Assembly: GCA_008016945.1 (NCBI GenBank)
Contig: SSGN01000024.1
Location: forward strand, 1-46,342
Direction of reading: 5' to 3'
Length of the DNA stretch: 46,342 bases
Source of the DNA: Flavobacteriales bacterium
GTDB lineage: Bacteria > Bacteroidota > Bacteroidia > Flavobacteriales > PHOS-HE28
Part shown: positions 1-15,638 of the stretch, piece by piece
Numbering within the stretch: position 1 is the stretch's first letter
How the letters are laid out: each line of letters starts with the position of its first letter
Translations under genes and position numbers: made by a program
Notes under the pieces: generated by a model
Databases searched by the model: none
Told to the model about the DNA's origin: nothing
The model's input: the letters and a program-made list of their open reading frames with translations, nothing else

Positions 1-1218
1 GCCATCGAGCACGGTGCCGTAGCCGAGCGCGGTCGCATTGGTGTAGCCCGCTGCGTTCTGCACGATGTTCGCACCAACGATGGTGCTGTTGGCGGCTCCT
101 GACAAACCAGCTTGGTACCCGATGGTCGTGTTGTAGTTCTGGTTCGTGATGCCGATGCCGGCCTGGTAACCCACCGCGGTATTGTAGTCGCCCGTGACAG
201 TGGAATTCACCCCGATCGCTTGGAAGCCGACAGCCGTGTTGTTCACACCGACCGTATTGTTCCACAAGGCGAACGCGCCGACAGCGGTGTTGTCGCCACC
301 GGTTGAATTGTCCTCCAACGCTTCGGCTCCAACGGCGACATTGTAAATGCCCGATGTATTGGCGAACAGTGCCGTATTCCCCACGGCGGTGTTCCCGCTG
401 GCCACGTTCGTGTAAAGCGCGCTGCTGCCAACGGCCGTGTTCCCCGCGCCCAGGACGTTCACCCGAAGGGCGTCGCTGCCTACCGCGGTATTGTCCGCTC
501 CTGTGCCGTTGAAGAGCATCGCCTCGGAACCCACGGCGGTGTTGTCACTTGCCACGGTGACGTTCATAGCACGGAAGCCCACCGCGGTGTTGTTGCTGGT
601 GCTCAGGTTCAGGTTCAAGGCCTGGCTGCCCAGGGCGGTGTTCTGGCCGCCCGTGGTGTTGGTGGCCAGCGCCTGGCTGCCCAGGGCGGTGTTGTTGTTC
701 GCTGTGGTATTGGCCGTGAGCGCGTTCTTGCCGACGGCCGTGTTGTTGGTGCCCGTGTTCACCATCAGTGCGCGATGGCCCCAGGATGTGGTGGTGCCGG
801 ACGGTGTGAGGAAGCCGCTGCGCTCGTTGTCCACGCGCACCTCCAACTGGTTGTTGTCCGTGGTGCCCAGGAAGTTGGTGCCGAGCGCCATGCCCGCGTT
901 CCCTGTCGTGCTCCAGCCTGTCGAGGCATTCAGAAGCGGTGCCCACGCTGTGCTGTTGAAGTACCAGAAGCCGTTGGTGCTGCTGTCGAAGACCAACAGA
1001 CCCGTGGCCGGGGCGGCGATCGCCGCGCGCTCGGCGGAGGTCATGCGCGGTATCAGCAGCCCACGTTTGGCGTTGGCGGGCAGGGCGGCAGCGCTCACAT
1101 CGAGCAAGGCCGAACCATCCGGCGCCGACCCATCGACATTGATCCCGATGTTCTGCGCCCGGGTACCACACACGAACGTGCACGCGAACAGCACGGCGAT
1201 GGTAGCCTTGTGAACCAT
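1..1218 (-). CDS. Secreted fibre-like protein with NTAVG head repeats (C-terminus off window)
   Basis: The reading frame is open from the ATG at 1218 to the window edge (406 codons), so the C-terminus is missing. It starts with a signal peptide (MVHKATIAVLFACTFVCG, then TRAQ), followed by a region of the form DGSALLDVSA...GLLIPRMT that is common at the N-terminus of Bacteroidota tail-fibre-like proteins. From about residue 150 onward the protein is built from roughly 15-residue repeats with the core NTAVGxxAL, which resemble the left-handed beta-roll head repeats of YadA-type trimeric adhesins. The neighbour at 1371-3287 has the same repeats followed by an S74 chaperone domain, so this protein probably ends the same way; that part is not visible. 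A surface fibre or adhesin is inferred from architecture only. It has its own promoter with the palindrome shared by two other units of this locus. Confidence 0.85.
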   Translation of the reverse strand, partial: MVHKATIAVLFACTFVCGTRAQNIGINVDGSAPDGSALLDVSAAALPANAKRGLLIPRMTSAERAAIAAPATGLLVFDSSTNGFWYFNSTAWAPLLNASTGWSTTGNAGMALGTNFLGTTDNNQLEVRVDNERSGFLTPSGTTTSWGHRALMVNTGTNNTAVGKNALTANTTANNNTALGSQALATNTTGGQNTALGSQALNLNLSTSNNTAVGFRAMNVTVASDNTAVGSEAMLFNGTGADNTAVGSDALRVNVLGAGNTAVGSSALYTNVASGNTAVGNTALFANTSGIYNVAVGAEALEDNSTGGDNTAVGAFALWNNTVGVNNTAVGFQAIGVNSTVTGDYNTAVGYQAGIGITNQNYNTTIGYQAGLSGAANSTIVGANIVQNAAGYTNATALGYGTVLDG

Positions 1219-1222
1219 GACC

Positions 1223-1269
1223 CAAATGTGCGCAGAGAGGCCGAGCCCGGCAATAACCCGTGCGGGTTA
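1223..1269 (-). promoter_or_regulatory. Promoter A with 7-2-7 palindrome, upstream of the 1218 gene
   Basis: The palindrome at 1254-1269 is perfect (minus strand TAACCCGCACGGGTTA: 7-bp arms, 2-bp centre). It directly abuts a -33 TTG (1251-1253), followed by a 20-nt spacer and the -7 element CACATTTG (1223-1230; consensus TAnnTTTG). Only 4 nt separate the -7 element from the ATG at 1218, so the transcript would be nearly leaderless. The same layout recurs at 5329-5375 and 10159-10205. Confidence 0.6.
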
Positions 1270-1279
1270 GAACGCAATG

Positions 1280-1317
1280 CCGGATCCCCGGCACCCGTAA
1301 GGTTGCCAGGGATCCGG
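1280..1317. terminator. Long hairpin between the two fibre genes
   Basis: CCGGATCCCCGGCA (1280-1293) pairs with TGCCAGGGATCCGG (1304-1317), a 14-bp stem with one mismatch and a 10-nt loop. It lies 54 nt after the stop of the 1371-3287 gene and just before promoter A, so it most likely ends the upstream three-gene operon. There is no T-run after it, so classical rho-independent termination is uncertain. A further inverted copy of the AATGCCGGATC word is at 1341-1351. Confidence 0.45.
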
Positions 1318-1370
1318 TTGCAGGACGCTCGCCGGTTATTGATCCGGCATTTGCCCTGCTCGAGGCGTGA

Positions 1371-3287
1371 TCACCGTTTCTCGAGTTCTTCGATGCGCGC
1401 TTTCAGTTGTTCGATGATGGCTTGTTGCTCCTGTACGGCCTTCACCAGCGGCACCACGAATTCGGCGTAGCGCAGGCCGTACAGGCCCTCGGCGGTCGCC
1501 GGTCGGTCAACGCCACTGAAGTCATAGCCCAGCGAACGACTGGCGGCCTCCACCTCCTGGGCGATGAAGCCGGTGTAACGGATGCGGGCCTGCTCGTCGC
1601 GTGCTTGGACATCGAGCGGATCGGTCCTGTGGATCTCCGCGCCGGTGCTGTCGTAGCGCACGTCCTCTTTCATGTGGGCGGCCAGAGCGTGTGCATCCAC
1701 ATTGTAGGTCACGGGCCGAAGCTTCATGATCAGGTCCAGGCCGCGCACATCCTCGCGCAGCGCGGTCTTGAAGCGGCCATCGCTGTAGGTGGTGAAGCCA
1801 ACCTGCCCTCTGATGCCAATGATGCTGGTGTTGCCCACGTGTACCCTGTTATTGCCATCCGGGCGTGCATTGTAGCCAAGCCCCATTGAGTTCGTGAAGC
1901 CCGAAGCTGTCGGAAAGGCCTGCCAGCCCAAATAGGTGGAATTGCTCATGTTGTAGAAGTTCCCCGCATCACGGCCTACCGCTGTATTGCCCCCACTGGT
2001 CGTGAACTCAAGAGCACTGTGGCCTACACCGGTATTATTGTCACCGATCAGATTCTGGTTGAGTGCGACATGACCAACTGCAGTGTTGAACTCGCCAGTG
2101 GTGTTGCCCTCCAATGCAAAGGAACCCACAGCCACGTTCGTCGAGGTTGTTCCATTGTTAGCATAGAGCGCATTGTACCCAACCGCAACATTGTAGTTCC
2201 CTGCAACATTCGAGTAGAGTGCGTTCTTACCCGCCGCGGTATTGTTCCCACCTGTTGTGTTATAGTGCATCGCATCCTTGCCACATGCGGTATTACCTGA
2301 GCCGCTGTTGTTGCTTGCGAGCGACTTCATGCCCAAAGCCGTGTTATCGGACCCTGTATAGTTGAAGTACAATGCACTGCTTCCAACAGCCGTGTTCTGC
2401 CCGCCGGTCGTATTGAACATCGAAGCGACATGCCCGATAGCAGTGTTGTCCTCACCGGTTGTCTGGTGCAGACTGTTGTACCCGAACGCAACAATTCCAG
2501 GATCGCGATCGATCTTACCTGCTTGATATCCAAGCACCTTGAAGACCAAAGTCGTGTTGTCCGTGGTACCAATGAAATGCGTTGCTGGGTCCGTGCCCGC
2601 ATTCCCCTGCAACCCCCAAGCGTTCAGCGCACCATCGGCACCAGGAGGTCCTTGAGGGCCCGCTACGCCCTGCGGCCCCGTGGCACCCACGGGGCCTGGT
2701 GGACCTTGTGCTCCGGTGGCTCCGGTCGCCCCTGTTGCACCGGCCGGACCGGTCGCGCCCTGCGGCCCCGCTGGCCCCTGCGCCCCGGTTGCTCCTGCGG
2801 GCCCCGCAGGACCGGTCGCACCTTGTGCCCCTGTAGCGCCCACGGGACCTTGCGGGCCCGCGGGGCCCACAGGACCGGCGGGACCTTGGGGGCCGGGCGT
2901 ATTGCTCGTCTCCGCGTACAGCGCATAGGGCACACTGAGCAATTGGGTCGTGCTGATGGTGACCCCGTTCACCCGGGTGCGTGCGAACCAGGGACCATCG
3001 CTCCAATCGACATCCGACCACGATCCGTTCACCGGTGTGCCCTGACCGAAGGCGAGGTTCACCAAGCCGAAAGCGTTCGTGGTGGCGGCGTGTTCTTCGC
3101 TGTACACCACGGGCCCATTGATGGCGCCTTGCAGCAGCGACAATTCGATGGCCGCCGGGGTGTTGGCTTGCACCACACCATTGCCGTCACGAACGATGGC
3201 CTGGTAGCTGAAACTCTGCGGTGTTTGCGCGCAAAGGGCCGTGCAGGCCACCAATGCGCACATCAGGAAGGAAGGTCGCTTGTTCAT
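1371..3287 (-). CDS. Collagen-like / NTAVG-repeat fibre protein with S74 intramolecular chaperone domain
   Basis: This 638-aa secreted protein has a signal peptide ending near [11 protein letters not shown]. An N-terminal beta domain follows (to about residue 125), then about 30 collagen-like Gly-X-Y triplets rich in GPQGPAG and GATGAQG (about 130-215). Next come many NTAVG/NTALG head repeats (about 245-460). The C-terminal peptidase_S74-type domain begins at [20 protein letters not shown], contains [10 protein letters not shown], and ends in a short coiled coil ([20 protein letters not shown]). In the family this domain drives trimer folding of phage tailspikes and bacterial fibres and may cleave itself off. 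It has no T9SS sorting domain, unlike the two genes before it. Its ATG overlaps the stop of the upstream gene (ATGA), so it is the third gene of a translationally coupled operon. A trimeric surface fibre is inferred. Confidence 0.9.
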
Positions 3288-3754
3288 TGGGTCACGATGA
3301 AGGGGATGGTCCGCAGTTCATCGTTGCCACGATCGAAGACCTGCAGGCGGTACGCGCCACTGGCCAGGTGATCGACGGACCAGGAATTGGTCGATGTGAT
3401 ACCGGACCACATGGCGACGTGTTGGCCGAGCGCGTCCAGCACGACAGCATGGTGTGCTTCGGAAGCGGTGGTGTTGAGCCGCAGCACGTCGCGCGTGGGA
3501 TTCGGGAAGAGCTGCCAATCCGCGTTGGCGGTTACCGGAACGACCACCGTACTGAAGTCGGCCGGTGGTTGGTGGAACCCTTGCGTGGCGATCACGGCCG
3601 GGCTCGTACCGGTCGCGATCATCGGTTCGCCGATGGTCCAGGCCCAATGCAGTCCCCCGCCATTCCCTTCACTGCCGCTCGGGGCCAGAACGGTTTGCGC
3701 GCGAGCGTTCTGGGTGAGCATGGCCGCCAGCACAAGGATCGCCGTGCGCATCAT
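3284..3754 (-). CDS. Small secreted protein with T9SS sorting domain
   Basis: This 156-aa protein has a signal peptide ([20 protein letters not shown]) and a short mature region with [10 protein letters not shown]...TQGFHQPP, a pattern common in short Bacteroidota T9SS proteins. The C-terminal type A sorting domain covers about residues 80-156: [12 protein letters not shown], then VLDALGQHV, and [10 protein letters not shown] near the end. The sorting domain takes up half the protein, so the functional part is small and its role is unknown. The ATG at 3754 overlaps the TGA of the upstream gene, and its own stop overlaps the next ATG, so it is the middle gene of a tightly coupled operon. Another in-frame ATG lies one codon downstream. 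Confidence 0.8.
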
Positions 3755-5304
3755 CACTTCAGGAGCTTGACAGCGGATCGAACGAGGCCATTGTCCACGT
3801 GCAGCGTGTAAGCGCCCGGAAGCAGTGCGCTCAGATCCGCAAGGAAGGGCGCATCACCGGGAACAGACGACGACCACATGCGCACGGCTCTGCCCGTAGC
3901 GTCCACGATGGTGAACTGCACGAGACCGGTATAGGCGGCACCCAGTTTGATGGCGACACGGTCGGCTACTGGGTTCGGGTACGCGCTGATCACCGAGGTG
4001 TTCGCTCTTTCAGGAAGGCCGGTGGAGATGTCGTTCAGGTATTTGATGAGCACGATCCGGTTGTGCCCGTCGACTTCGGCGTATCCAATGCCGATGATGG
4101 AACTGTCATTGGTGAAGGCCAGATCGAAACAGGTCTCCTCGCCGCCGTCCTCGTCGTAGTCGGCGGCAAAGAACACGCCATCGCTGCTGATATTGTTGCT
4201 CTGCGTACGTTTCACGTTCCAGTTCCTGGAGTTGGGGGCAGCGCCCACGTTGCCACCACATATGATGGCACCGTTGTTCTGTACCAGCAGGCAATTCCAA
4301 GCATCTGCGCCGTTGGGATCGTCCATGAAAGAATAGGACACTTCGTGTCCCGTTGCATCGAAGGTGTGGATGATGCGGGCTTGGGTAGACCCGGTTATAC
4401 GCTTCACACCGGCAGCGGCAATCTGCCCATTGGGACGTAAAGCGATCGATCGGGGGATCAGGTCCGATCCGCTTTCCGAAACCCACGAATGCCCGTTGGC
4501 GTTGCCGAAAGTGGACGGATCGTTGCCTTGAGCGTCGAGGTGGCCGAGAAGCAATGAAAGATCGCTTTCGCCAGAACGCGTGCCATAGCCGCAGAAATAG
4601 ACCTCGCCGGCATCGCTGAGCACCGCGCTTCGCAGTTCCTCGCCGATCGCATCCACGATGTATACCAGTACCGAGCCATCGCCACCGAACGATGGGTCCA
4701 GACCGCCATTGTCCAAGTATCGCTCCACCACGATCTCCGTCTGGCCGATGGCCGGACCGCTGAAGCCGCAGAGCAAGACCTTGCCATCGGGCTGGATCAG
4801 CACTTCGTAGGCCTCCTCCGCATCCGGGGTGTTGTGGATGTCGCGCACCAGGATGCCCGTGCCGTTGAACGAGGGGTCCAGGGAACCATCGGCGAGGAAA
4901 CGCGCCACGAACATGTCGCTGTTGGTCTCTGCCGCATCGGAGAACAGGTGGCCGCCCACCACCAAGCGGCCCGAACCATCAAGTTCCGCGGAACGGATGA
5001 ACTCGCTGCCATCTGCGAGATCGTGCTCCACCACACCGTTGGTACCGAAGGTCGGATCGGGTGATCCATCCGCATTGAAGCGGAGAAGCACGGAATTGAA
5101 GTGAGTGCCATCGCTGCTGCGACCGGCCACCAAGATGCGGTCGTCCGGCAGTACCACGGCGGTCACACTCTGGTCATCCTCCCCCGCACCAAGCTGGGGG
5201 ACGATGACTTTTCCGTTGTTACCGAATGAAGGGTCCCAGGTGCCCGGCTGGGCGTACGCCCCCATGGTGAGGAGCGCGAGGAAGGGAAGGGTGGCGTGTC
5301 GCAT
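3754..5304 (-). CDS. Delta-60 repeat protein with T9SS type A sorting domain
   Basis: This 516-aa protein begins with a signal peptide (MRHATLPFLALLTMGAYAQ). At least four delta-60 repeats follow (for example GTWDPSFGNNGKV, NADGSPDPTFGTNGVV, ADGSLDPSFNGTGILV, DNGGLDPSFGGDGSV), a beta-propeller-like repeat family of secreted proteins. The last 90 residues form a type A sorting domain (AYPNPVADRVAIKLG, IVDATGRAVRMW, LLPGAYTLHVDNG). The start at 5304 is chosen because the signal peptide begins there; the longer frame would need a TTG codon inside the -7 element. It is the first gene of the operon read from promoter B, followed by two coupled genes. The family is secreted and surface-attached; the ligand or function is unknown. 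Confidence 0.88.
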   Translation of the reverse strand: MRHATLPFLALLTMGAYAQPGTWDPSFGNNGKVIVPQLGAGEDDQSVTAVVLPDDRILVAGRSSDGTHFNSVLLRFNADGSPDPTFGTNGVVEHDLADGSEFIRSAELDGSGRLVVGGHLFSDAAETNSDMFVARFLADGSLDPSFNGTGILVRDIHNTPDAEEAYEVLIQPDGKVLLCGFSGPAIGQTEIVVERYLDNGGLDPSFGGDGSVLVYIVDAIGEELRSAVLSDAGEVYFCGYGTRSGESDLSLLLGHLDAQGNDPSTFGNANGHSWVSESGSDLIPRSIALRPNGQIAAAGVKRITGSTQARIIHTFDATGHEVSYSFMDDPNGADAWNCLLVQNNGAIICGGNVGAAPNSRNWNVKRTQSNNISSDGVFFAADYDEDGGEETCFDLAFTNDSSIIGIGYAEVDGHNRIVLIKYLNDISTGLPERANTSVISAYPNPVADRVAIKLGAAYTGLVQFTIVDATGRAVRMWSSSVPGDAPFLADLSALLPGAYTLHVDNGLVRSAVKLLK

Positions 5305-5328
5305 GTTCTTGTGGTTGTTCTTCCACAG

Positions 5329-5375
5329 CAAAACACGCGTGCCACCGACGTGGCATCAATAACCCATGCGGGTTA
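5329..5375 (-). promoter_or_regulatory. Promoter B with 7-2-7 palindrome, upstream of the delta-60 operon
   Basis: The palindrome at 5360-5375 (minus strand TAACCCGCATGGGTTA) differs from that of promoter A at one base. It abuts a TTG (5357-5359), a 20-nt spacer and GTGTTTTG (5329-5336), 24 nt before the ATG at 5304. The spacer contains a second perfect inverted repeat, TGCCAC-CGAC-GTGGCA (5340-5355), absent from promoters A and C. The palindrome overlaps the stop codon of the response regulator gene (5373-5375). Confidence 0.6.
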
Positions 5376-6029
5376 AGCAGACCCGTCCTTCGGATACCCT
5401 TGGGGGTAGGCCTTCTTCAGCGCCTCCATCTTCCCGTTCACCTGCAGCTTGCTGTAGATGCGGCGCACATGCACGCGCACGGTCTCGGTGCTCAGCTCAA
5501 GCTTGGCGCCGATCTCCTTGTACTGAAGACCGGTAGCAAGGCCATCCAGTACCTGCTTCTCCCGCTCGCTCAACTTCTCGTCGTTGATGCGCTGCCGGGT
5601 CTCCTTCTGGAAGCTGTTCACCACCAACCGCGCGATGGCGCTGTTCATGGGCGACCCGCCGCGGTGGATGTCGCGCACCGCTTCCAAAAGCTCTTCGGCG
5701 GGTGTGCTCTTCAACAGGTATCCGGTCGCCCCGGCGCACAGCGCTTCGAAGATGTACGCCGGGTTCTCGAAGATGGTAAGCATGAGGTACTGCACTTCCG
5801 GCTTGCAGCGTTTGGCCTCGCGCACGGTATCAATGCCGTTGCGGCCGGCCATGTTGATGTCCATGAGCACCACATGCACTTCCAGGTCGTCCAGCTTGTT
5901 CAAGTAGTCGTCGCCGCTCTCGAACACACGCACCACCTGCATATCACTGCTGCGCTCAATGCGGCGGCGGATCAGCGTTCGCAATTCATCGTCGTCCTCC
6001 ACGATGGCGGTGCGGATGATGGTGGGCAT
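5373..6029 (-). CDS. NarL/LuxR-family two-component response regulator
   Basis: This 218-aa regulator has an N-terminal receiver domain (about residues 3-120) with the acidic pocket VEDDDE, phospho-acceptor Asp57 in LMDINMAG, the conserved Thr in LMLTIFEN and Lys in GYLLKSTP. A LuxR-type HTH (about 148-210) follows: KLSEREKQVLDGLATGLQYK, then IGAKLELSTETVRVHVRRIY. The ATG at 6029 is preferred over an upstream in-frame TTG at 6038. It follows the second kinase gene by 23 nt and is the last gene of a kinase-kinase-regulator operon. NarL-family regulators often bind 7-2-7 inverted heptamers, which is the geometry found in promoters A, B and C, so it is the best candidate to bind them; this is inference. 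Confidence 0.92.
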   Translation of the reverse strand: MPTIIRTAIVEDDDELRTLIRRRIERSSDMQVVRVFESGDDYLNKLDDLEVHVVLMDINMAGRNGIDTVREAKRCKPEVQYLMLTIFENPAYIFEALCAGATGYLLKSTPAEELLEAVRDIHRGGSPMNSAIARLVVNSFQKETRQRINDEKLSEREKQVLDGLATGLQYKEIGAKLELSTETVRVHVRRIYSKLQVNGKMEALKKAYPQGYPKDGSA

Positions 6030-6052
6030 GACCCGCAAGATAGCGGTCCCCG

Positions 6053-8128
6053 TTATTCCGCTGGCAGCGACGCCGCGAAGTCCACGCGGGTGCCTGCGCC
6101 TATCGCGCTGACCACATTGAACTCTCCTCCGATCCGCTCCGCGCGGGCCCGCATGTTCCGCAAGCCATGCCCTTGGCCGGCGTTCACCTCCATGCCCACC
6201 CCATCATCCTTCACCTCGAACCTGACCCGCGTGGCCGAGGTGTGGAACTTCACATGGATATGTTGGGCGTTGGCGTACTTGATCGCATTGTTCAGCGCCT
6301 CGCGTAAAATGAGATAGATGTCGCGTTTGGTGGCAGGGTCCAGCGATCGGTCGGGGCCTTCGTGAGCGCACTCCACGGTGTGTTCCACCTTGCTCCATTT
6401 CAGCATGCGATCGCAATGTGCGCGAACGCGTTCGGTGAGGCTCGTCAGCGAATCGTGGTGCGGATCGATGGCCCACACGATGTCGCCCAAGGAGCGGTTG
6501 GCCTCCCCAGCGATGCGCTCGATGTCGTTGGTGATGTCAGGTAACCCGTTCGTTCCGGAATGGGCCACCTCCCTGGCTTCGGTGCTGAGCAGAACGAGCT
6601 TGGTAAGATCGCTACCGAGCTGGTCATGCACATCGCGGGCGATGCAGGTACGCACCTCGCTGGCTTCACGAGCGCGTTCGCTCTCCAGCAACCTTTCCTG
6701 GGCTTCTTCGATGGCGCGTTTGGCCCGGGCCGTGTACCGCATGCGCAGCCACGCTGCAGTGCCCAGTATTGCGGCGACCGCCAGCAAGGCCAGCAGCCAC
6801 GTCCGTTGTTCCCGGTGCTTCGCTTCGGTCCGCGTTCGTTCGGCCACGTGGCGCAGGCTGTCCGTTTCCGCCGCGCGTTCATAGGTGTACTTGAACCCGC
6901 TGCGCAACAGGTCGCGCTGGTTCTCCTCGCGCAGGATGCTGTCGTTCAGCAGCACCACCTGCTCATGCACCGCCAGCGCTTCCTGCCAGCGACCCAGAAC
7001 TTTCAAGGCGGCATACCGCGCAGCGGCAGCATCGCGCTGCAGGTTCAGTTCCTCGGCGCGTACTGCGGCGCTGTCGGCGGCCACGGCCATCGCGAGTGCA
7101 CGTACCGGTTCGCCTTCCCGCAGCAGCACGGTGCTCAAGCCCACCAGCGCATTGCCCAACCCGTACGGCAGGTCTTCTGCACGGGCCATCGCCATGCTCT
7201 GGTCGAAGAGCGTCCTCGCCTCATTGGGCCGGAGTTGTTCGAGCAGGAGGGAAGCCAGGCGGTTACGCACGTTCACCAATCCATGGCGGTCGTCGATGGC
7301 CAGTCTGATGGTCTCGCTCCGTCGATACGCTTGCATCGATCCGGTGGTATCGCCCATTTCCTTCAGGCACGATCCGATCTCTTCCAGTTGTGTGCCCAGC
7401 TGATGCTGATCGTCCAGTTCCTCCGCCATTGCTGCTGCCCGGCGGTAGTACCCGAGCGCCTCGTTCCAGTCGCTCTGATTGAGGTACAGGCCACCGAGGT
7501 TGGCCAGCGAGGTGCAGATGCCGCGCTTGTTGCCGAGTGTTTCCTGGATGTACAGGCTTTGTTGGTAGAGGTCCACGGCCTTGCCATGGTCACCGCGGAG
7601 CATTTGCACGCGTCCGATGGCGTTGAGGTCGTTGGCGATGCTCGCACTGTCCGCCAAGCGCTCGTGTAGATCCAGGCCTTGTTCGTAGAGCGCCAGCGCG
7701 GAGTCCAATTCCCCGAGGTACGAGAGCATGCCGCCCATGTTGCTGATCACGTCGGCCTGTCCGTCGGCATCGCCGTTGCGACGATGGAGTACGAGCGCCG
7801 TGTCGTAATGCGACAATGCGGTGCGCATTTCGCCACGCACGTACCATACGGCCGCTTTCAGTTCAGAAGATCGTGCCTCGAACACGACATCGTGCTTGGT
7901 TCGTGCTTCGTGCTGTAGCTGTTCGGCGAGGAGGTAGGCGCTATCGGGATCGGAGAAGAGGTAGCCATCCCAGGCGAGGTCGAAGAGGGCGAGGAGGCGT
8001 GTGCTGTCCGGCTTGTGCGGATCGCACGTGATGGCACGCAGAGAATCCTTATTGACCTGTGCAAGACAGGGGTCCACGAGGAGGAGCAAGCAGGTGATCC
8101 CGCAGAATCGGAAGCCGAGGTTGCTCAT
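6053..8128 (-). CDS. TPR-containing sensor histidine kinase (HisKA_3), second of a pair
   Basis: This 691-aa protein has a signal peptide (MSNLGFRFCGITCLLLLVDP, cut near CLAQ) and a long alpha-helical TPR array (about residues 40-390; for example LGNKRGICTSLANLGGLYLN). A helix, one membrane segment (WLLALLAVAAILGTAAWLRM), and a HisKA_3 dimerisation domain with phospho-His501 in ARDVHDQLGSD follow. The C-terminal HATPase domain has N-box EALNNAIKYA, G1 box DDGVGM and GHGLRNMRARAERIGG. The TPRs are predicted to be periplasmic and the kinase cytoplasmic. The start at 8128 fits the signal peptide; the frame extends further upstream without support. It follows the first kinase by 16 nt and precedes the regulator by 23 nt, so all three probably form one phosphorelay. 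The signal sensed is unknown. Confidence 0.9.
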   Translation of the reverse strand: MSNLGFRFCGITCLLLLVDPCLAQVNKDSLRAITCDPHKPDSTRLLALFDLAWDGYLFSDPDSAYLLAEQLQHEARTKHDVVFEARSSELKAAVWYVRGEMRTALSHYDTALVLHRRNGDADGQADVISNMGGMLSYLGELDSALALYEQGLDLHERLADSASIANDLNAIGRVQMLRGDHGKAVDLYQQSLYIQETLGNKRGICTSLANLGGLYLNQSDWNEALGYYRRAAAMAEELDDQHQLGTQLEEIGSCLKEMGDTTGSMQAYRRSETIRLAIDDRHGLVNVRNRLASLLLEQLRPNEARTLFDQSMAMARAEDLPYGLGNALVGLSTVLLREGEPVRALAMAVAADSAAVRAEELNLQRDAAAARYAALKVLGRWQEALAVHEQVVLLNDSILREENQRDLLRSGFKYTYERAAETDSLRHVAERTRTEAKHREQRTWLLALLAVAAILGTAAWLRMRYTARAKRAIEEAQERLLESERAREASEVRTCIARDVHDQLGSDLTKLVLLSTEAREVAHSGTNGLPDITNDIERIAGEANRSLGDIVWAIDPHHDSLTSLTERVRAHCDRMLKWSKVEHTVECAHEGPDRSLDPATKRDIYLILREALNNAIKYANAQHIHVKFHTSATRVRFEVKDDGVGMEVNAGQGHGLRNMRARAERIGGEFNVVSAIGAGTRVDFAASLPAE

Positions 8129-8144
8129 ACGTTGTTGAACAAGT

Positions 8145-10154
8145 TCAGGTGGAGGCGAGTTCGACCTCCAGACGCACCAAGGTACCGCCCTCTGGTTCAC
8201 TGGCGATCACCAGCCTCCCGCCCAAATGCTCGGCCCGTTCCTTCAGGTTCCGCAGGCCGCGCCCCTTACGCATGGCGCTAATGGGATTGAATCCCTTACC
8301 ATCATCCTTCACTTCCAGTCGAAGGGAGTTCTCGCGGGCAACGAAGGTGACGTGGATGCAATGCGCCTGGGCATATTTCACCGTGTTGTTCACCGCCTCG
8401 CGCAGGATCAGGTAGAGGTCGCGCTTGGTGGCGGGATCGAGCGGCCGGTCCCGACCTTCCACGATGCAGTCGACGGTGTATGTGGCGCCGCTGGTGCTGA
8501 GCATGCGTTCGCAGAACTGGCGCGACCGGTCCATGAGGTCCGTGAGCTTGTCATTTGCGGGTTCCACGGCCCAGACGATATCGCTCAGTGAGCGCCCCGC
8601 TTCGCTGGCGATGCGGTCGATGTCGGCCACGAGTTCAGGGACCGCGCCCGGATCATCCTTCAGGCTCGCGCTCACTTCGCTGCCCAGCATGCTCAACTTG
8701 GTGAGGTCGCTGCCTAACTGATCGTGCATATCGCGGGCGATCCGTGAGCGCACCTGCTCGGCCTCGCGCTGCTTCTCGGTGGCCACCACCTTGTCCTGTG
8801 CAGCGAGCATGGCCGCGTTGGCCTTGCGTGCGATGCGGAATCGGCTCCACAAGGCGATGGCCAACGCGACCGCCAGCACGCACGCACCGATGATGATGTA
8901 TCGCCAGGTGCGTTCGCTCGCCAGCTTGTGCGCATGTTCCAGAGCCATGGTGCGCGCTCTGTTCACGTGTGCCAGACTGTCGCGCAACTCCTCTTCACGG
9001 AAGCGGGAGAACAGCACGGCCTCGCGCCCGTTCATGCGCTCCACGCTGTCCTTCAGCACGCTCCAGTGATCCGTGACCTCCAGTGCGTCAGCCGCGCGTC
9101 CTTGCGCCTTCAGCACGGTTCGCAATCCGTTCAGTGCATAGAGCATTGAGCCTTCGTCGCCCAGCTCGCGTGCCACGCCCACGTTGCCCAGGCTTTCCGC
9201 GAGCGCCAGTCCGCGCCGGTACCATTGTTCCGCTGCGGTGTGATCGCCGGATGCGACCAGTCCATCGCCAAGCAGATTGATGCACCCGCATTGTGCGGTG
9301 AGGTCGCCCATCCGCTCGGCGACCCGTGCGCAGAGGCCCGCGATGCGCATGCCATCGGCGATGCGCTGTTGCGCGTAGTACAGCCGGGCGAGCGGCGTGA
9401 GCCCGGGCAGGCTGTCCCAGGCGTTGTTCGATCGGGAAGCCGCGGCCAGGCTGCGCAGGTACAACTGCTCTGCATCAGCGGAACGGCCTTGCATGAAACG
9501 GATATGGGCACGTTCATTGAGCACCATGCTGGAATCGCCCGGGCTTCCTTTCCCGCAGGAATCCAGGTAGGCCCATGCGCGATCATGTTCGCTGCGGTCG
9601 GAACACAGACGTGCCAGGTGCACCAGTGCTTGTGTTCGCAGGAAGGAATGCCCGATGGACCGTCCGATGCCGAGTTCTGCGCTGAACGCGGCTTCAGCTT
9701 TGTCCTTGGCACCGGTCAAGCCGTACACCAGGCCGATGGCGTCCTGGCATTCGCCCACCGCATGCTGGTGCCCCCCTTGCTCGAAATCCGCGATCGCCTG
9801 CTTGAACGATGACAACGCGAGCGGGATGTCGCGCGCGAACTTGGCGTGGTAGCCGGTGAAGAAGTGGTAGGCACCGCGCGCATGGCGGGCTCGTTCGCGC
9901 ACGCGCGTTGATGGATGCAGGAGGAGCTCCGCGCTCAGGCTGTCCAGGCGATGGAGGAAGGGGAAGGCCTTGGGCGAAGTGGTCCACGATTCGCACGCCC
10001 AGATGAGCATGGTGAGTTGCAGGGTATCTTTTTTCGTGCGATCCAGCAGCGGTGTGATGGAGTCGAGGCGCGCGGGGTTCTCTTGTGCCCGTACTCGGGC
10101 GGGAAAGAGGTACACCGTAGCGGTGAGTGCCAGCAGATGCAGGTAACGCAGCAT
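8145..10154 (-). CDS. TPR-containing sensor histidine kinase (HisKA_3), first of a pair
   Basis: This 669-aa protein has a signal peptide (MLRYLHLLALTATVYLFPAR, cut near VRAQ), a TPR array (about residues 60-370), one membrane segment (YIIIGACVLAVALAIALW), and HisKA_3 with phospho-His477 in ARDMHDQLGSDLTKL. The HATPase domain has EAVNNTVKYA, DDGKGF and GRGLRNLKERAEHLGG. The architecture matches the following kinase, and the catalytic halves are clearly related, while the TPR halves are much more diverged. This suggests duplication followed by divergence of the sensing part. The start at 10154 is chosen from the signal peptide and from promoter C, whose -7 element is 4 nt upstream; the open frame continues to 10283 but reads through the promoter. 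Confidence 0.9.
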   Translation of the reverse strand: MLRYLHLLALTATVYLFPARVRAQENPARLDSITPLLDRTKKDTLQLTMLIWACESWTTSPKAFPFLHRLDSLSAELLLHPSTRVRERARHARGAYHFFTGYHAKFARDIPLALSSFKQAIADFEQGGHQHAVGECQDAIGLVYGLTGAKDKAEAAFSAELGIGRSIGHSFLRTQALVHLARLCSDRSEHDRAWAYLDSCGKGSPGDSSMVLNERAHIRFMQGRSADAEQLYLRSLAAASRSNNAWDSLPGLTPLARLYYAQQRIADGMRIAGLCARVAERMGDLTAQCGCINLLGDGLVASGDHTAAEQWYRRGLALAESLGNVGVARELGDEGSMLYALNGLRTVLKAQGRAADALEVTDHWSVLKDSVERMNGREAVLFSRFREEELRDSLAHVNRARTMALEHAHKLASERTWRYIIIGACVLAVALAIALWSRFRIARKANAAMLAAQDKVVATEKQREAEQVRSRIARDMHDQLGSDLTKLSMLGSEVSASLKDDPGAVPELVADIDRIASEAGRSLSDIVWAVEPANDKLTDLMDRSRQFCERMLSTSGATYTVDCIVEGRDRPLDPATKRDLYLILREAVNNTVKYAQAHCIHVTFVARENSLRLEVKDDGKGFNPISAMRKGRGLRNLKERAEHLGGRLVIASEPEGGTLVRLEVELAST

Positions 10155-10158
10155 GCGG

Positions 10159-10205
10159 CGAAGGTGCGCGGAGTTGAGCGCACGGGCAATAACCCGCAAG
10201 GGTGA
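10159..10205 (-). promoter_or_regulatory. Promoter C with 7-2-7 palindrome, upstream of the kinase operon
   Basis: The palindrome at 10190-10205 (minus strand TCACCCTTGCGGGTTA) has the same promoter-proximal half (CGGGTTA) as promoter A and a weaker distal half. It abuts a TTG (10187-10189), a 20-nt spacer and CACCTTCG (10159-10166), 4 nt before the ATG at 10154. Spacing is identical to promoter A, which supports autoregulation of the kinase operon. Confidence 0.55.
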
Positions 10206-10236
10206 ATGGAGCGGCTTACCGCGAGCAGGTTTTTCC

Positions 10237-11166
10237 ATGATCCCCCCCATCCTTGAGTTTTGTCGCGTTGACCGTACCACCATCCGCCTTCATGGGATAT
10301 TCGCGCTCTTGACCTATTTTGTTTTCGCCTGCGCTGGACGCGCCCAGGTTCTCACCTGCGGCACCGCCTACTGGAAATTCGGCTATGTGGGGACGCCGTG
10401 GTGGATGGTACAGTCTGGATCAGGGTCTTCATCGGAGTGGTCCCAAGCGTGATCTTCCCGCTGCGGATGAGGTATTCTGCCGATCTGGATGCGGCAGTGA
10501 TCTGCCGGTGAGCCCATCCATGGGGCCGGATGAGTCTGAGCGGTGCGTGGTGGCCGATGGTTCGGGTGGTAGGTACAGCGGTGGTGATCTTTCACCGGTG
10601 GCCGGGCAAGCCCGTGCGCACCGTTCCCATAGGGTGCCGAACGGAAGTGTTGCGCCCTGGAGCCCAGTGGTGAACGCACCCGTGAAGACGATGCTCATCA
10701 AATGGGATATCCTTTTCTCCGGCGAAGATCTCACCAATGTGAACCCCGCGCCGCAACACGACCTGATAGACGTGCGCTTGTCGCTGATCCATCGGAACAA
10801 AGTGAACCTTGATCAGAGCTACGCGAACGACTGGTGCGACCCTGAGCGCTGAACGCCTCTACGTTGGTGGCGACATCCCCCAGATCAACGGGGTAGCGCG
10901 CTCCCGTGTCGCATGCTCCACCGTGAGCGACCATACGGTGACCGGTTGGGCACCGACCGTGAACAACGTCGTGCACGGCTTGATCACCACGGCCTCCGTC
11001 ATCTACCTCGTTGGCGAGTTCACGACCATAACGGCACCACGTGTGGGGGCAGAGCCATGCTTGGCCAACAGCGAACGCTGAATGGACCAGGAAGTCCAAT
11101 GCCAACAACGCGGGCTATCGCATGGTGCTACGGGCAACCTGCCTGATCCTCGGTGGAGCATCGCGT
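10237..11166 (+). pseudogene. Decayed secreted beta-propeller-like repeat protein
   Basis: No single frame spans this 930-bp stretch, but overlapping fragments in different frames carry one protein family. The first (from 10237) has a signal-peptide-like FALLTYFVFACAGRAQ. The second (to 10852) has RYSGGDLSPVAGQARAHRSH, PNGSVAPWSPVVN and FSGEDLTNVNPAP. The third (to 11081) has ERLYVGGDIPQINGVARSRV, TVTGWAPTVNNVVHGL and VIYLVGEFTTI. A last piece reads NANNAGYRMVL near 11100-11150. Together these are degenerate copies of the repeat YVGGDFTxVxGxxR...NGxxxxWxPxVN found in secreted Bacteroidota proteins. At least three frameshifts and several stop codons break it up. It is divergent from the kinase operon. 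The exact ends are uncertain. Confidence 0.65.
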
Positions 11167-11167
11167 A

Positions 11168-11196
11168 TCTTCCTTGAAGCAATTCTTCCTTGAAGC
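11168..11196. repeat. Two 13-bp direct repeats upstream of the ChaN-like gene
   Basis: TCTTCCTTGAAGC occurs at 11168-11180 and again at 11184-11196 (16-bp period). It lies about 50-80 bp before the start at 11247. It could be a tandem regulator site or a simple duplication at the end of the pseudogene. Confidence 0.4.
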
Positions 11197-11246
11197 GATT
11201 TTCCGCACCGCCGTTTCGGCGCTTGCATGGTCCGTTCCTTTGCACC

Positions 11247-12101
11247 ATGCTTCTCCGATCATCGCTCACTGCCCTGCTCCTGCTGGCCTGTACGCTGTTA
11301 CCCGCCCAGCTTCCCGCCTACGCCCTCTTCAACGCCAAGGGGAGGCCTCTTGCACATAAGGGCATGATGAAACGATTGAAGCAGGCCGACATCATCCTCT
11401 TCGGCGAGCTGCACAACAACGCCATCGCGCACTGGCTGCAATTGGAGGTGACGCGTGAACTGGTCGCCGCCGGTCCGTTGGTGCTGGGTGCGGAGATGAT
11501 CGAACGCGACGACCAGACCACGCTGGACCGCTATCTGCGCGGCGAGATCGACCAGGCCGCCTTCGACACGCTGGCCCGCCTGTGGAAGAACCACGCCAGT
11601 GACTACAAACCCTTGGTGGACCTTGCGAAGGCCCATGACCTGCCCTTCGTGGCGGCGAACGTGCCGCGCCGTTACGCCCGCGCCGTGAACCGCGGCGGCT
11701 TCGAGGCGCTGGACACCGTGCCCGGTACGGAACGCGCGTGGATCGCGCCCTTGCCCATCGCCTTCGATCCCGAACTGCCGCGCTACCGGTACATGCTCAC
11801 CATGATGGGCGATCATGGCACCCCTGACATGGTGAAGGCCCAAGCGCTGAAAGATGCCACCATGGCCCACAGCATCGTGGAGCACTTCCGGCCGGGCCAT
11901 CGCTTCATCCACTACAACGGCAGTTTTCATAGCGACTATTTCGAAGGCATCAATTGGTACCTGCAACGCATGCGGCCCGACCTGAAGCGCATCACCATCG
12001 CCACGGTGACCCAGGCCGAAGTGAACCGCTTGCACACGGATCACTTGGGCCAGGCCGACATCATCATCGTGGTGGACGAGGATGTGCCGGGGACGTACTG
12101 A
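11247..12101 (+). CDS. ChaN-family (DUF399) haem/iron-associated protein
   Basis: This 284-aa protein has a signal peptide (MLLRSSLTALLLLACTLLPA then QLPAYALF) and the ChaN fold signatures: IILFGELHNN near residue 50, LGAEMIERDDQ near 90, and HYNGSFHSDYFEGI near 230. ChaN proteins are extracytoplasmic haem-binding proteins thought to take part in iron uptake, distantly related to the TraB/Tiki fold. The start at 11247 is supported by the signal peptide. A -7-like element TTCCTTTG (11235-11242) ends 4 nt upstream of this ATG, the same spacing as in promoters A and C. The gene stands alone between the pseudogene and the TetR gene. An iron regulator site was not recognised. Confidence 0.85.
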   Translation: MLLRSSLTALLLLACTLLPAQLPAYALFNAKGRPLAHKGMMKRLKQADIILFGELHNNAIAHWLQLEVTRELVAAGPLVLGAEMIERDDQTTLDRYLRGEIDQAAFDTLARLWKNHASDYKPLVDLAKAHDLPFVAANVPRRYARAVNRGGFEALDTVPGTERAWIAPLPIAFDPELPRYRYMLTMMGDHGTPDMVKAQALKDATMAHSIVEHFRPGHRFIHYNGSFHSDYFEGINWYLQRMRPDLKRITIATVTQAEVNRLHTDHLGQADIIIVVDEDVPGTY

Positions 12102-12234: not shown

Positions 12235-12903
12235 ATGAGCACGGAACAGACAACCTCGGGAACACCAAGCGGTGCACTGGCCACCGACGAACGTTGGCTG
12301 CGCATCGTGGAGGGGGCTGCACGGGTCTTCTGGACCAATGGCATCCGGAGCGTGACGATGGACGACATCGCGGGGGAGTTGGGCATCAGCAAGAAGACCC
12401 TGTACCTGTATGTGAAGGATAAGAGCGACCTGGTGACCAAGGTGCTTCAATTTACGAGCGCCCGTTACCACGCGCACGTCACCGCGATCCAGGAGCAGGG
12501 GCTCAATGCCATCGATGAGATGTTCGCCATCGCGCAGTACATCTCAGCGGAAGTCTCCAAGCTGCACCCCAGTCTGTACTTCGACCTGGCCAAGTATTAC
12601 CCAGAGGCCTGCCGGATCATGGACCAGGGCAAGCAGGTGGAGGTGGTGCGCCAGGTGGCGCAGAACATGGAGAAGGGCATGCGCGAGGGCTACTACCGTG
12701 AAGACCTCAATGTGCCATTGCTGGCCAAGCTGTACATGGTGCGGTTCGACCAGGCCATGAGCGTGGAGCAGGCGAAACTGGCCGAACGCTACAGCATGTC
12801 CGAGATCAACTGGGAACTCTTCCGCTACCACATCCGTGGGATCGCCAGCAAGAAGGGTCTGGATTACCTGGAGAAGCGAATGAGCAAAGGCACACCATCA
12901 TGA
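12235..12903 (+). CDS. TetR/AcrR-family transcriptional regulator
   Basis: This 222-aa protein has a TetR HTH in residues 20-70: RIVEGAARVFWTNGIRSVTM, then DDIAGELGISKKTLYLYVK. An all-helical C-terminal ligand and dimer domain follows. It is the first gene of a regulator-TolC-adaptor-permease set, with 61 nt to the TolC gene, so it most likely represses its own efflux operon. The start at 12235 is 25 nt after the -7 element; the upstream open frame is not supported. Confidence 0.92.
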   Translation: MSTEQTTSGTPSGALATDERWLRIVEGAARVFWTNGIRSVTMDDIAGELGISKKTLYLYVKDKSDLVTKVLQFTSARYHAHVTAIQEQGLNAIDEMFAIAQYISAEVSKLHPSLYFDLAKYYPEACRIMDQGKQVEVVRQVAQNMEKGMREGYYREDLNVPLLAKLYMVRFDQAMSVEQAKLAERYSMSEINWELFRYHIRGIASKKGLDYLEKRMSKGTPS

Positions 12904-12964
12904 AGCCGATGCAACAACGGAAGCCGGACACGATGAACCGGCCTGCGAAAACGAACGAACCGTC

Positions 12965-14284
12965 ATGAGGACCATCCATACGATCATCCTGCTGCTGGCC
13001 GCTCTGGTGCAGCATGCACAGGGGCCGGTCAGCCTGAGCCTGCAACAAGCGCTGGACCTGGCCGCCAAGCAGAGCTATAGCGTGCAGGCCAGCGCACTGG
13101 AGGCGGAGAAGGCCGCGTCGAAGATCAAGGAGATCACCGGTCTGGGCCTGCCGCAGATCGCGGCAACGGGCACGCTCCAGAACTACATCAAGGTGCCCAC
13201 CATGGTGGTGCCCAGCTTCTTCGGTGGCGATGAGCTGATGAAGATGCAGTTCGGTGTGCCCTGGAGCATGAGCGGTGGAGTGCAGTTGAACCAGTTGCTC
13301 TTCGATGGAAGCTACCTCGTGGGCCTCCAAGCCACGCGGGAGCTGCGCACCAAGAGCGCCAAGGACCTGGAGCAGGCCGTGATGAACGCGCGGGTGCAAG
13401 CGGCGAAGGCCTACCTCGGTGTATTGGCCGCGGAAGAGGGGGTACGGTTGATCGGGGAGAGCCTGCCCGTGCTGGAGAAGGCCAGTGCCGACGCCCAGGC
13501 CATGGTGGCGCAGGGCATGATCGAGAGCACCGATAGCGACCGCCTCCTGGTGCAGCTGGAAGAGGCCCGCGCTCAGCAGCGCAACATGCAGCAACAAGCC
13601 CTCGTGGCGCGGGCCTACCTCAACCTGGTGCTGGGCCTGCCCACCGGCACACCGGTCACCCTCACCGATGCCCTGCAACCGTTGCTCGACGCGCCTTCGG
13701 AAGCGGGCCTGGCCGATATTGCTTTCGATGTGGACCAGCACGTGGACCAGCAGGTGGCGCAGAGCATGCTGCGGCTGGGGGAGCTGGATGTGCGGAACAA
13801 GAAAGCCACCTACCTGCCCACGCTTGCAGGATTCATCAACTACCAGCAGCAGTACAACTACACCAAGTTCGATGTGGCCAACGGCAGTTGGTGGTTCCCG
13901 GCGAGCTTGTGGGGCCTACAGCTCAACGTGCCCATCTTCAGCAGTGGCATGCGGCACCAGCAGGTGAAGCAGGCGAAACTCTCGCTGGAGCAGGCCAACG
14001 TGAACCTCAAGGCCACGGAACAGCGCTTGCTCGCGGAGAAGGAGCAGCAACAGGCCATCCTGCGCGCCGCCCAGGACAGCTATGAGACGGGGAAGCGCAA
14101 CCTGGCCTTGAGCAAGAGCATCTTCGACCGCACCAGTATCAAGTTCACCGAGGGCCTGGCCAGCAGCTTCGAACTCACCCAGGAGCACGGGAGCTACCTC
14201 ACCACCCAACAGACCTACATCCAGCGTGTGGTGGACCTGCTGCAAGCGCGGGCCGACATGCGCAAGGCGCTGGATGCGTATTGA
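12965..14284 (+). CDS. TolC-family outer membrane efflux protein (first RND system)
   Basis: This 439-aa protein has a signal peptide (MRTIHTIILLLAALVQHAQG) followed by the two-fold helical and beta-strand pattern of outer membrane efflux channels: LSLQQALDLAAKQSYSVQAS at the start of the first half, and GLQLNVPIFSSGMRHQQVKQ in the second half. Length is normal for the family. It provides the outer membrane duct for the adaptor and permease encoded next. The genes are in the order regulator, channel, adaptor, permease, which is the usual Bacteroidota order. Confidence 0.92.
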   Translation: MRTIHTIILLLAALVQHAQGPVSLSLQQALDLAAKQSYSVQASALEAEKAASKIKEITGLGLPQIAATGTLQNYIKVPTMVVPSFFGGDELMKMQFGVPWSMSGGVQLNQLLFDGSYLVGLQATRELRTKSAKDLEQAVMNARVQAAKAYLGVLAAEEGVRLIGESLPVLEKASADAQAMVAQGMIESTDSDRLLVQLEEARAQQRNMQQQALVARAYLNLVLGLPTGTPVTLTDALQPLLDAPSEAGLADIAFDVDQHVDQQVAQSMLRLGELDVRNKKATYLPTLAGFINYQQQYNYTKFDVANGSWWFPASLWGLQLNVPIFSSGMRHQQVKQAKLSLEQANVNLKATEQRLLAEKEQQQAILRAAQDSYETGKRNLALSKSIFDRTSIKFTEGLASSFELTQEHGSYLTTQQTYIQRVVDLLQARADMRKALDAY

Positions 14285-14360
14285 TGATCCCATGATCCAC
14301 CCACAACGCACACGTACGCACGACCCATTGGTCCGCCCCACCGGTAACCTCGATAGACCC

Positions 14361-15509
14361 ATGAAACAGATCATCCTTCCGCTCACCCTCACCGCCCTGC
14401 TCGTGGCTTGCGGTGGGGCCGACACTAGCGACCTGGGCCAGAAGCGGGCCCACCTGGAGCGGCTGAAGGCGACCTACAGTGCCTATGCGGACAGCATCAA
14501 GTCGCTCGAAGCCTGGTTGGTGGAGAACGACACCACGGTGCGTCGCAACCTCCCCACGGTGACCGCCGACACCTTGCGCGCCATCCCCTTCACGCACTAT
14601 GTCGATGTGCACGGCAATGTCCGGGCGGATAAGTCCGCGGCGTTGTACAGCAATGGCGGCCGGGTGCGTCGCATACTGGTGAATCCGGGAGACCGTGTCA
14701 GCGCGGGCCAGACCCTGATCAGCATCGACAATGACATGGTGGTGAAACAGATCCAGCAGGCCGAGGCCGGACTGGAATTGGCGCGTACCGCCTTCGAGAA
14801 GCAGGAGCGGCTGTGGCAACAGCGGATCGGCAGCGAGATCCAATTCCTCCAGGCCAAGACCCAGAAGGAACAGGCCGAAGCGGGCCTCGCCACCCTGCGC
14901 GAACAGCAACGCCTCACCAACATCACCGCGCCCTTCGCCGGCACGGTCGATGACATCATGGTGCGCGAGGGCGACATGACCAGCCCCATGCAGGCGGCCG
15001 CCCGGGTGGTGGACCTCGCCAGCGTGCAGCTCGAGGCCGATGTGCCCGAGAGCTACCTGCGCAGCATCCGCAGTGGCACCCCGGTGAAGGTGAGCTTCCC
15101 CAGTGTGGAAGAACGGTTCAACGGCACCCTGGCGCACGTGGGTCAGTTCATCGATCCCAGCAACCGCACCTTCAAGGTGTCCGTGCGGGTACCCCAGGGA
15201 GAAGGCTACATGCGCCCCAACCTGCTGTGCGACATCAGTGTGCAGGACCAGCATTTCGATTCCGCCCTGGTGGTCCGTGCGCGGGCGGTGCTCCAGGATG
15301 TGAAGGGCAACAACTACATCTACGTGCTGGACCCCACCCGCGACAACGAGGCCCGGTCGCGCAAGGTGATGGTGGACCGCATCAGCGAGTACAAAGGCTA
15401 CATCAACATCGCCCCGGTGGAAGCCGATGCGCTGAAGGGAGGTGAACGGATCGTGGACGAAGGGGCCAAGAACGTGACCGACGGGCTTACGGTGCGGGTG
15501 GCGAACTAA
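14361..15509 (+). CDS. RND efflux periplasmic adaptor, lipoprotein (first RND system)
   Basis: This 382-aa protein begins with a lipoprotein signal (MKQIILPLTLTALLVAC, lipidated Cys17). An N-terminal coiled coil (about residues 25-60) comes next. The biotinyl-lipoyl half-motif GGRVRRILVNPGDRVSAGQ follows, then a helical hairpin, the second lipoyl half LTNITAPFAGTVDDIMVREG and the beta-barrel domain (VQLEADVPESYLRSI). This is the HlyD/AcrA adaptor architecture linking permease to channel. The start at 14361 is fixed by the lipobox. Between this gene and the permease lies a palindromic repeat element. Confidence 0.92.
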   Translation: MKQIILPLTLTALLVACGGADTSDLGQKRAHLERLKATYSAYADSIKSLEAWLVENDTTVRRNLPTVTADTLRAIPFTHYVDVHGNVRADKSAALYSNGGRVRRILVNPGDRVSAGQTLISIDNDMVVKQIQQAEAGLELARTAFEKQERLWQQRIGSEIQFLQAKTQKEQAEAGLATLREQQRLTNITAPFAGTVDDIMVREGDMTSPMQAAARVVDLASVQLEADVPESYLRSIRSGTPVKVSFPSVEERFNGTLAHVGQFIDPSNRTFKVSVRVPQGEGYMRPNLLCDISVQDQHFDSALVVRARAVLQDVKGNNYIYVLDPTRDNEARSRKVMVDRISEYKGYINIAPVEADALKGGERIVDEGAKNVTDGLTVRVAN

Positions 15510-15518
15510 GGAGGTCAC

Positions 15519-15625
15519 CTCACCACGAAGGCACAGCGAACACAGAGAAGAGCCACAGGATGACGCAAGGAACGACACGGAGCGCAAGACCGCATTACTC
15601 CGTGTTCGCTGTGCCTCTGTGGTGA
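15519..15625. repeat. Palindromic intergenic element, copy 1
   Basis: The 23-bp arms at 15521-15543 and 15602-15624 are inverted copies with two mismatches (core GGCACAGCGAACAC versus GTGTTCGCTGTGCC). The loop is about 58 nt. It sits inside the adaptor-permease gap. A diverged relative is at 31541-31636 (TTCACCACAACGGCACGGAG at its left end). It looks like a REP or MITE-type dispersed element; no coding capacity or target duplication was recognised. Confidence 0.7.
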
Positions 15626-15638
15626 AAAGCATTCCAAC

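Follow-up and report, generated by a model that had tools for sequence, protein, structure and literature searches.

The window (the whole stretch of DNA that we analysed, 46,342 nucleotides) holds a two-component locus on its minus strand, next to genes for surface proteins. The features are listed here in the order of transcription, with all coordinates referring to the window.

10190..10205 (read 10205-10190), minus strand: box 3, candidate operator palindrome TCACCCTTGCGGGTTA, of the kinase-kinase-regulator operon
10159..10189, minus strand: kinase 1 core promoter, with TTG (10189-10187), N20 and CACCTTCG (10166-10159)
8145..10154, minus strand: kinase 1, 669 aa, with TPR-like region, TM segment, HisKA_3 and HATPase_c
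6053..8128, minus strand: kinase 2, 691 aa, with N-terminal hydrophobic segment, TPR repeats, TM segment, HisKA_3-type H-box and HATPase_c
5373..6029, minus strand: NarL/FixJ-type response regulator, 218 aa, with Response_reg and GerE; recognition helix TVRVHVRRIYSKLQV
5360..5375 (read 5375-5360), minus strand: box 2, candidate operator palindrome TAACCCGCATGGGTTA, of the delta-60/fibre operon
5329..5359, minus strand: core promoter of the delta-60/fibre operon, with TTG, N20 and GTGTTTTG (5336-5329)
3754..5304, minus strand: delta-60-type beta-propeller (DUF5122) protein with a T9SS sorting tail, 516 aa
3284..3754, minus strand: small secreted protein with a T9SS sorting tail, 156 aa
1371..3287, minus strand: collagen-like / S74-chaperone fibre protein, 638 aa
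1254..1269 (read 1269-1254), minus strand: box 1, candidate operator palindrome TAACCCGCACGGGTTA, of the second fibre gene
1223..1253, minus strand: core promoter of the second fibre gene, with TTG, N20 and CACATTTG (1230-1223)
1..1218, minus strand: second fibre gene, truncated by the window edge, named for its likeness to an S74 protein of genome G001

Each kinase has one TM segment ahead of the kinase core (at 415-443 in kinase 1) and an intact H-box. The HisKA_3 domain of kinase 1 contains ARDMHDQLGSDL. HATPase_c is above the Pfam cut-off in both. For HisKA_3 the cut-off is 24 bits, which kinase 1 exceeds (35.4 bits) and kinase 2 just misses (21.8 bits). The TPR repeats are clear in kinase 2, and the matches in the TPR-like region of kinase 1 are slightly below the Pfam cut-offs. 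For the two proteins together the scan listed TPR, HisKA_3 and HATPase families plus one SNAP match, and nothing else.

The regulator consists of a receiver and a C-terminal helix-turn-helix (Response_reg at 9.2e-23 and GerE at 6.3e-17 in Pfam). Its best solved relatives are VraR, DesR and NarL, the last of which aligns over 9-204, so the claim of a NarL-type regulator within the locus was borne out. It contains the motifs VVLMDINM and GYLLKST, which we take to be the sites of the phospho-acceptor Asp and the conserved Lys. It is not NarL itself, as it scored 118.3 bits against the NCBIfam NarL equivalog with a cut-off of 250. NarL contacts DNA with K188, V189 and K192. The excerpt of PMC4549865 at hand had no mention of these residues as DNA contacts.

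The portion of the second fibre gene inside the window gave no Pfam match, and it has 97% identity to a 578-aa S74-chaperone protein of G001. Upstream of the locus, a 72-aa plus-strand piece at 10634-10852 matches at 44% the divergent 920-aa delta-60 gene of G001, and this piece may be the decayed remnant of a lost divergent surface gene. The stretch at 12235-19223 adjoins the two-component locus and begins with a TetR gene (12235-12903) and an outer-membrane efflux gene, after which come ORFs that resemble, by eye, a membrane-fusion protein and a large transporter. A TetR gene lies near the two-component locus in several relatives too, and this is perhaps a preferred insertion site.

All three boxes run straight into TTG, then N20 and then nnnnTT(T/C)G. 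The sequence-only reading had placed the three palindromes at these positions, ahead of the fibre gene, the delta-60/fibre operon and the kinase-kinase-regulator operon, and we confirmed both the positions and the genes that follow. It had also described every -7 element as TTTG-type, which is correct for boxes 1 and 2 but not for box 3, where the element is TTCG. The 7-2-7 geometry that it reported is perfect only in box 1; box 2 pairs at 6/7 positions and box 3 at 5/7. When up to 3 mismatches are allowed, the palindrome by itself shows no enrichment in the window (5 seen against 7.35 expected from shuffles). Sites with all elements in place (palindrome with no more than 1 mismatch, TTG, N20 and nnnnTTYG) occur three times in the window, and none of 300 dinucleotide shuffles of the window gave such a site. 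The regulator's TAA stop codon forms the first three bases of box 2. Most of the spacer between the TTG and the -7 element of box 2 is occupied by a second inverted repeat (TGCCACGTCGGTGGCA, window 5340-5355), which has not been kept in G001.

Kinase 1 and the second fibre gene both have a start codon 4 nt past the -7 octamer (gaps 10155-10158 and 1219-1222), so we predict that their mRNAs are leaderless. Among 45 boxes from the family as a whole, the start codon is at exactly this distance in 8, with gene starts taken from a simple gene caller. The leaderless class makes up only 5.5% of the mapped mRNAs in F. psychrophilum, according to the part of PMC9723704 available to us.

To look at the phasing in a larger set, we gathered boxes from the fetched loci without using the -7 element, which gave 65 distinct boxes (35 exact, and 30 that differ by one mismatch). 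In 45/65 the TTG slot is followed at 20 nt by a TTYG octamer and in 8/65 at 21 nt, and the rest of the range 10-30 nt contains just 3 more matches; these counts do not describe a random genome sample, because the loci were chosen around regulators and pattern matches, and the boxes are not independent of one another. With exact boxes, 33/35 have a -7-like element (TTYG or TTGY) exactly 20 nt on: TTYG at 20 in 30 and TTGC at 20 in 3, with TTYG at 21 in 1 and no element in 1. For the 30 one-mismatch boxes the corresponding counts are 15 (TTYG at 20), 1 (TTGC at 20), 7 (TTYG at 21) and 7 (none). Despite the fixed 20-nt distance, the spacer sequence between TTG and the -7 element is not conserved. 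A looser scan (free half-sites, TTG required, spacing 18-22) returned 25 rows in 0.69 Mb of window and family loci versus 1 in a mononucleotide shuffle; some of the 25 rows repeat one site because loci overlap or genomes are near-identical. The same scan gave 15 matches in 1.12 Mb of 75 other loci, many of them from other phyla.

Across 45 boxes, palindrome pairs 1-6 agree in 45, 43, 39, 28, 35 and 40 cases, with the outer pairs being partly fixed by the search pattern. A strict 7-2-7 form is not established, because the seventh pair holds in only 19/45. As for the features of Bacteroidota sigma-A promoters, the TTG, the TT(T/C)G and the 20-nt spacing are present, and most octamers lack the initial TA (just 10/45 have T as their first base). 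The centre of the box is 31 bp above the -7 octamer. If the octamer is placed as in F. psychrophilum, where it spans -12 to -5 (PMC9723704, in part), the box would span about -51 to -36 and be centred at -43.5.

We scanned genome contigs with the regulator as query, which led to five close relatives (loci L001-L005), all of them Flavobacteriales MAGs, with regulator identities of 96, 89, 80, 71 and 75%. The plan of the window, with boxes before kinase 1, 3' of the regulator and before the second fibre gene, is seen in relatives as well. In L001, boxes are found before both kinases, 3' of the regulator and before the second fibre gene; the promoter ahead of kinase 2 in G001 is similar to that of box 3 in the window, and has TAACCTGAGCGGGTTA. 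L001 also has a divergent box, with TTC instead of TTG, before the 920-aa delta-60 protein. No such box was found in the fetched locus L004 (genome G004).

We then turned to 45 genomes of the family, which are also what the order-level search covered. Regulator matches are present in 40/45 (E up to 1e-40). The degenerate box TAMYMCN4GKGKTATTG, searched as an exact pattern, had 37 matches in 16/45 genomes versus 1 for the reversed control pattern. Thirty of the 37 share a contig with a homologous regulator (identity about 51% or more, entered by hand), always at 14.3 kb or less from it, in agreement with the expectation that genome-wide matches would be local and not scattered. The remaining 7 sit on contigs without a regulator; the MAG assemblies are fragmented, and two of the seven, in G024, are possibly pieces of the same broken locus. 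G006 has a contig, C1, of 3,918,270 bases (listed genome 3.9 Mb), and all 4 exact matches on it lie within 21.3 kb (3,201,179-3,222,517), around the regulator at 3,215,448. A fifth box at 3,218,019 has one mismatch to the class-A pattern described below.

The presence of a box follows that of the regulator: 14/19 genomes with a regulator at 56% identity or above have one versus 2/26 of the others (p = 6e-6), where the identity cut was chosen after the data were seen and the lists were entered by hand. The comparison with related genomes, a check named in the sequence-only reading, went largely in its favour, with boxes kept together with the genes in most close relatives. The exceptions are 5 of the 19 genomes (G004, G017, G020, G031 and G039), which have weaker or doubtful variants only. 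We dropped the idea of a wider regulon across the class. A sample of 198 genomes gave 57 matches, of which 9 belong to G001, G002 and G006, which are family members, and outside the family there was no clear excess, with 48 matches versus about 40 for the control (counted by eye from the rows).

Boxes were found before kinase genes, before the gene after the regulator and before further genes for secreted proteins. The genes directly 3' of them encode TPR kinases, S74 fibres, DUF5122/Rax2-like propellers and small T9SS-tail proteins, as well as a 1363-aa FG-GAP protein with a T9SS tail, an FGE-sulfatase-domain protein and, on a contig without a regulator, an ELWxxDGT-repeat protein. One box is followed by a gene for a 566-aa protein and then one for a protein of about 2294 aa whose TANFOR match is below threshold. 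In L001, an S74 gene is followed by a TPR-adenylate cyclase. Some off-regulator boxes precede genes with no evident tie to surface fibres, such as an imelysin gene in G021.

The imelysin box is one of three GATC-centred boxes (L216 9374 in G041, L221 11089 in G008 and L219 9689 in G021) on contigs without a close regulator; the other two precede hypothetical ~300-aa genes that look alike. These boxes are possibly targets of another NarL-type regulator. G041 also has a perfect palindrome, TACCATCAAGATGGTA, at 7004-7019 of L227, with an nnnnTTTG octamer on either side at the distance usual for boxes, and this could be a single operator for two divergent promoters.

We consider it probable that the locus encodes an autoregulated, locally acting two-component system of the NarL/FixJ type, which activates its own kinase operon and the adjacent surface proteins from an operator that abuts the -33 element. 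The genes, the boxes, their fixed phasing, conservation and local clustering, and the association of box and regulator are all in keeping with this. Two membrane kinases with TPR-type sensor regions would pass a signal to one NarL/FixJ-type regulator, and a dimer of the regulator would bind the 16-bp inverted repeat, whose centre is near -43.5 and which lies immediately above the -33 TTG. Once bound, it would recruit RNA polymerase at sigma-A-type promoters in a class II-like manner. The kinase-kinase-regulator operon would itself be among the targets, which gives positive feedback; further targets would be the neighbouring operons, which encode propeller proteins exported by T9SS and S74/collagen-like fibres. 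For NarL, a single 7-2-7 site abutting -35 is enough for activation, with its centre 32 bp above the -10 element (PMC7419079 and PMC9314961, in the parts available). Self-regulation and control of the adjacent fibres had been proposed in the sequence-only reading, and the box positions fit both; binding and activation are the steps that we infer.

The same arrangement could serve a repressor, which would keep the kinase and fibre genes silent until it is released by a signal. An operator that touches the -33 element could block polymerase, and the sign of the effect is not readable from sequence alone. We think repression unlikely, because the centre near -43.5 and the strict 20-nt phasing match the NarL activator sites just above -35 (PMC7419079, from the excerpt consulted), and because many of the cores, with TTCG and the rare initial T noted above, are poor sigma-A promoters and therefore suggest the need for an activator. 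We give almost no weight to the boxes being REP-like repeats or transcription terminators with no regulatory role. They are short inverted repeats, and box 2 sits at the regulator's stop codon, but a terminator scan of window 1-12000 predicted none of the three. Boxes also start operons, their distance to the -7 element is locked, and they are few per genome and clustered by the regulator. We rejected this explanation on the terminator scan and the promoter locking.

It is also quite improbable that the boxes serve as operators for the TetR-family regulator next to the locus (window 12235-12903); its efflux operon adjoins the locus in several genomes. The palindromes to which TetR proteins bind are similar in length to the boxes, and a TetR gene lies close by in the window and in G001, G002, G004, G006, G007, G009, G010 and others. 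Against this, TetR matches occur in 40/45 genomes (E up to 1e-30), of which 24 have no exact box, and in G003, G024 and G029 the TetR match and the boxes are on different contigs. G020 and G031 have boxes with 1-2 mismatches yet no TetR match, with the caveat that these assemblies may be incomplete, and no box was found at the TetR gene of the window. We rejected TetR as the box binder on this distribution across the 45 family genomes.

Returning to the NarL/FixJ-type regulator, the family contains paralogous copies of it with box variants of their own. In a tree of 33 regulators, that of the window falls in a clade of 11 (support 95/94), and a second group of 7 (86/86) makes up module B. Both module-A and module-B regulators are present on one contig in G003 and in G010. 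Class A boxes (TAACCC/GGGTTA) mostly go with the helix VRRIY, and class B boxes (TACTAC/GTGGTA) with VRNIY or VRHIY. Between the modules, the recognition helix differs at residues 190 (R versus N/H) and 186 (V versus K), in the numbering of the window regulator. We compared helix and box for 22 regulators with an adjacent box, a set that includes near-identical pairs (G006/G009 and G020/G022) and three boxes picked by eye (G001b, G004 and G017), and that leaves out the 11 tree members without a recognised adjacent box. VRRIY regulators are beside TAACMC boxes in 8/10 cases and the others beside TACTAC/TACCAC in 9/12. The right half ends in GTTA in 6/10 with R versus 0/12 of the others (p = 0.003), and the left half starts with TAAC in 8/10 versus 3/12 (p = 0.03). 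In partial Mantel tests, box distance correlates with helix distance when the receiver domain is controlled for (r 0.26, p 0.004), and it also correlates with the distance between receivers when the helix is controlled for (r 0.35, p 0.00025). Much of the helix-box correlation is therefore explained by shared descent. A strict code from helix to box is thus only partly supported.

Hybrid boxes are found 3' of module-A regulators, as TAACAC-GTGGTA in G003 and G010 and as TACTAC-GGGGTA in G006 and G009. G006 retains a pure class B box (TACTAC/GTGGTA) while its only close regulator has the helix VRRIY (its other regulator matches have at most 47% identity), which argues against a strict specificity. 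A third clade, of four regulators, has the helix VRTHVRSIY or VRTHIRSIY, and at the matching place G014 and G040 have TCNCATC-TT-GATGNGA, with its centre 31 bp above the octamer in G040 and 30 bp in G014 (by eye). We found no such box at the matching place for the other two members, G010c and G002b. The motif is also 3' of a 54% regulator in G011 that is outside the tree, and genome-wide it has 4 matches (3 exact) in the 45 genomes and none in the control. In G016 a second regulator copy is broken, with short pieces in different frames (L171 4695-5243).

One possible explanation, which we put forward tentatively as a little short of probable, is that two-component/operator modules have been duplicated as local cassettes and that regulator specificity and operator change together, half-site by half-site. 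The TAACCC, TACTAC and TCCCATC box classes would then go with different regulator clades, and the hybrid boxes would mark cross-talk between modules or the capture of one module's surface genes by the regulator of another. If this is true, the choice of surface coat evolves as self-contained cassettes, because the regulon stays physically local. The paralogous modules would form a natural series in which to study how regulators and their operators can diverge while avoiding cross-talk.

To our knowledge, few two-component regulators of Bacteroidota have known binding sites, and for this phylum the boxes offer an operator code of a NarL-type regulator that can be tested. They would tie membrane sensors of the TPR type to an exchangeable set of surface proteins, in bacteria that are known here only from metagenome assemblies. 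We found no description of the box or the locus in the titles and abstract starts of the open-access papers that our searches listed.

BvgA of Bordetella belongs to the NarL family and autoregulates. It controls genes genome-wide, unlike the regulator here, whose regulon is mostly local. In both systems a regulator and kinase locus lies beside a large surface adhesin gene or its counterpart, and here the kinase/regulator operon and the adjoining surface-protein genes carry a common operator-like site. BvgAS-fhaB likewise has heptanucleotide inverted repeats, and one site, of low affinity, adjoins -35; at fhaB, BvgA relies on a high-affinity site together with weaker sites, and here there is usually one strong box per promoter (PMC2225982, in the excerpt consulted). 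BvgAS comes from another phylum and its sensor kinase is of the Venus-flytrap type (PMC5829827, in part), in contrast to TPR/HisKA_3 here. The Pfam scan of both kinases gave no Venus-flytrap sensor, which sets the locus apart from BvgAS itself.

The half-sites here (TAACCC or TACTAC) are unlike the NarL consensus, TACYYMT, and in contrast to yeaR and ogt of E. coli the promoter is of the Bacteroidota type and the targets are surface proteins. The placement is alike: a single 7-2-7 site abutting -35 is enough at yeaR, and at ogt1052 the centre is 32 bp above -10, compared with 31 bp above the octamer here (PMC7419079 and PMC9314961, in the parts available). PorXY-SigP of Porphyromonas gingivalis is also a case of two-component control of T9SS-linked functions in Bacteroidota. 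It differs in that it works in tandem with an ECF sigma factor and acts on secretion components, and the abstract of PMC7712824 describes no local box family. The sequence-only reading knew of no described system with this layout, which was too strong and has to be softened, since BvgAS-fhaB is a close functional analogue (PMC2225982, as far as the excerpt goes) and the NarL sites at yeaR/ogt are placed in the same way. The layout here seems best described as resembling BvgAS-fhaB and E. coli yeaR/ogt, with duplicated and apparently co-diversifying regulator-operator modules added.
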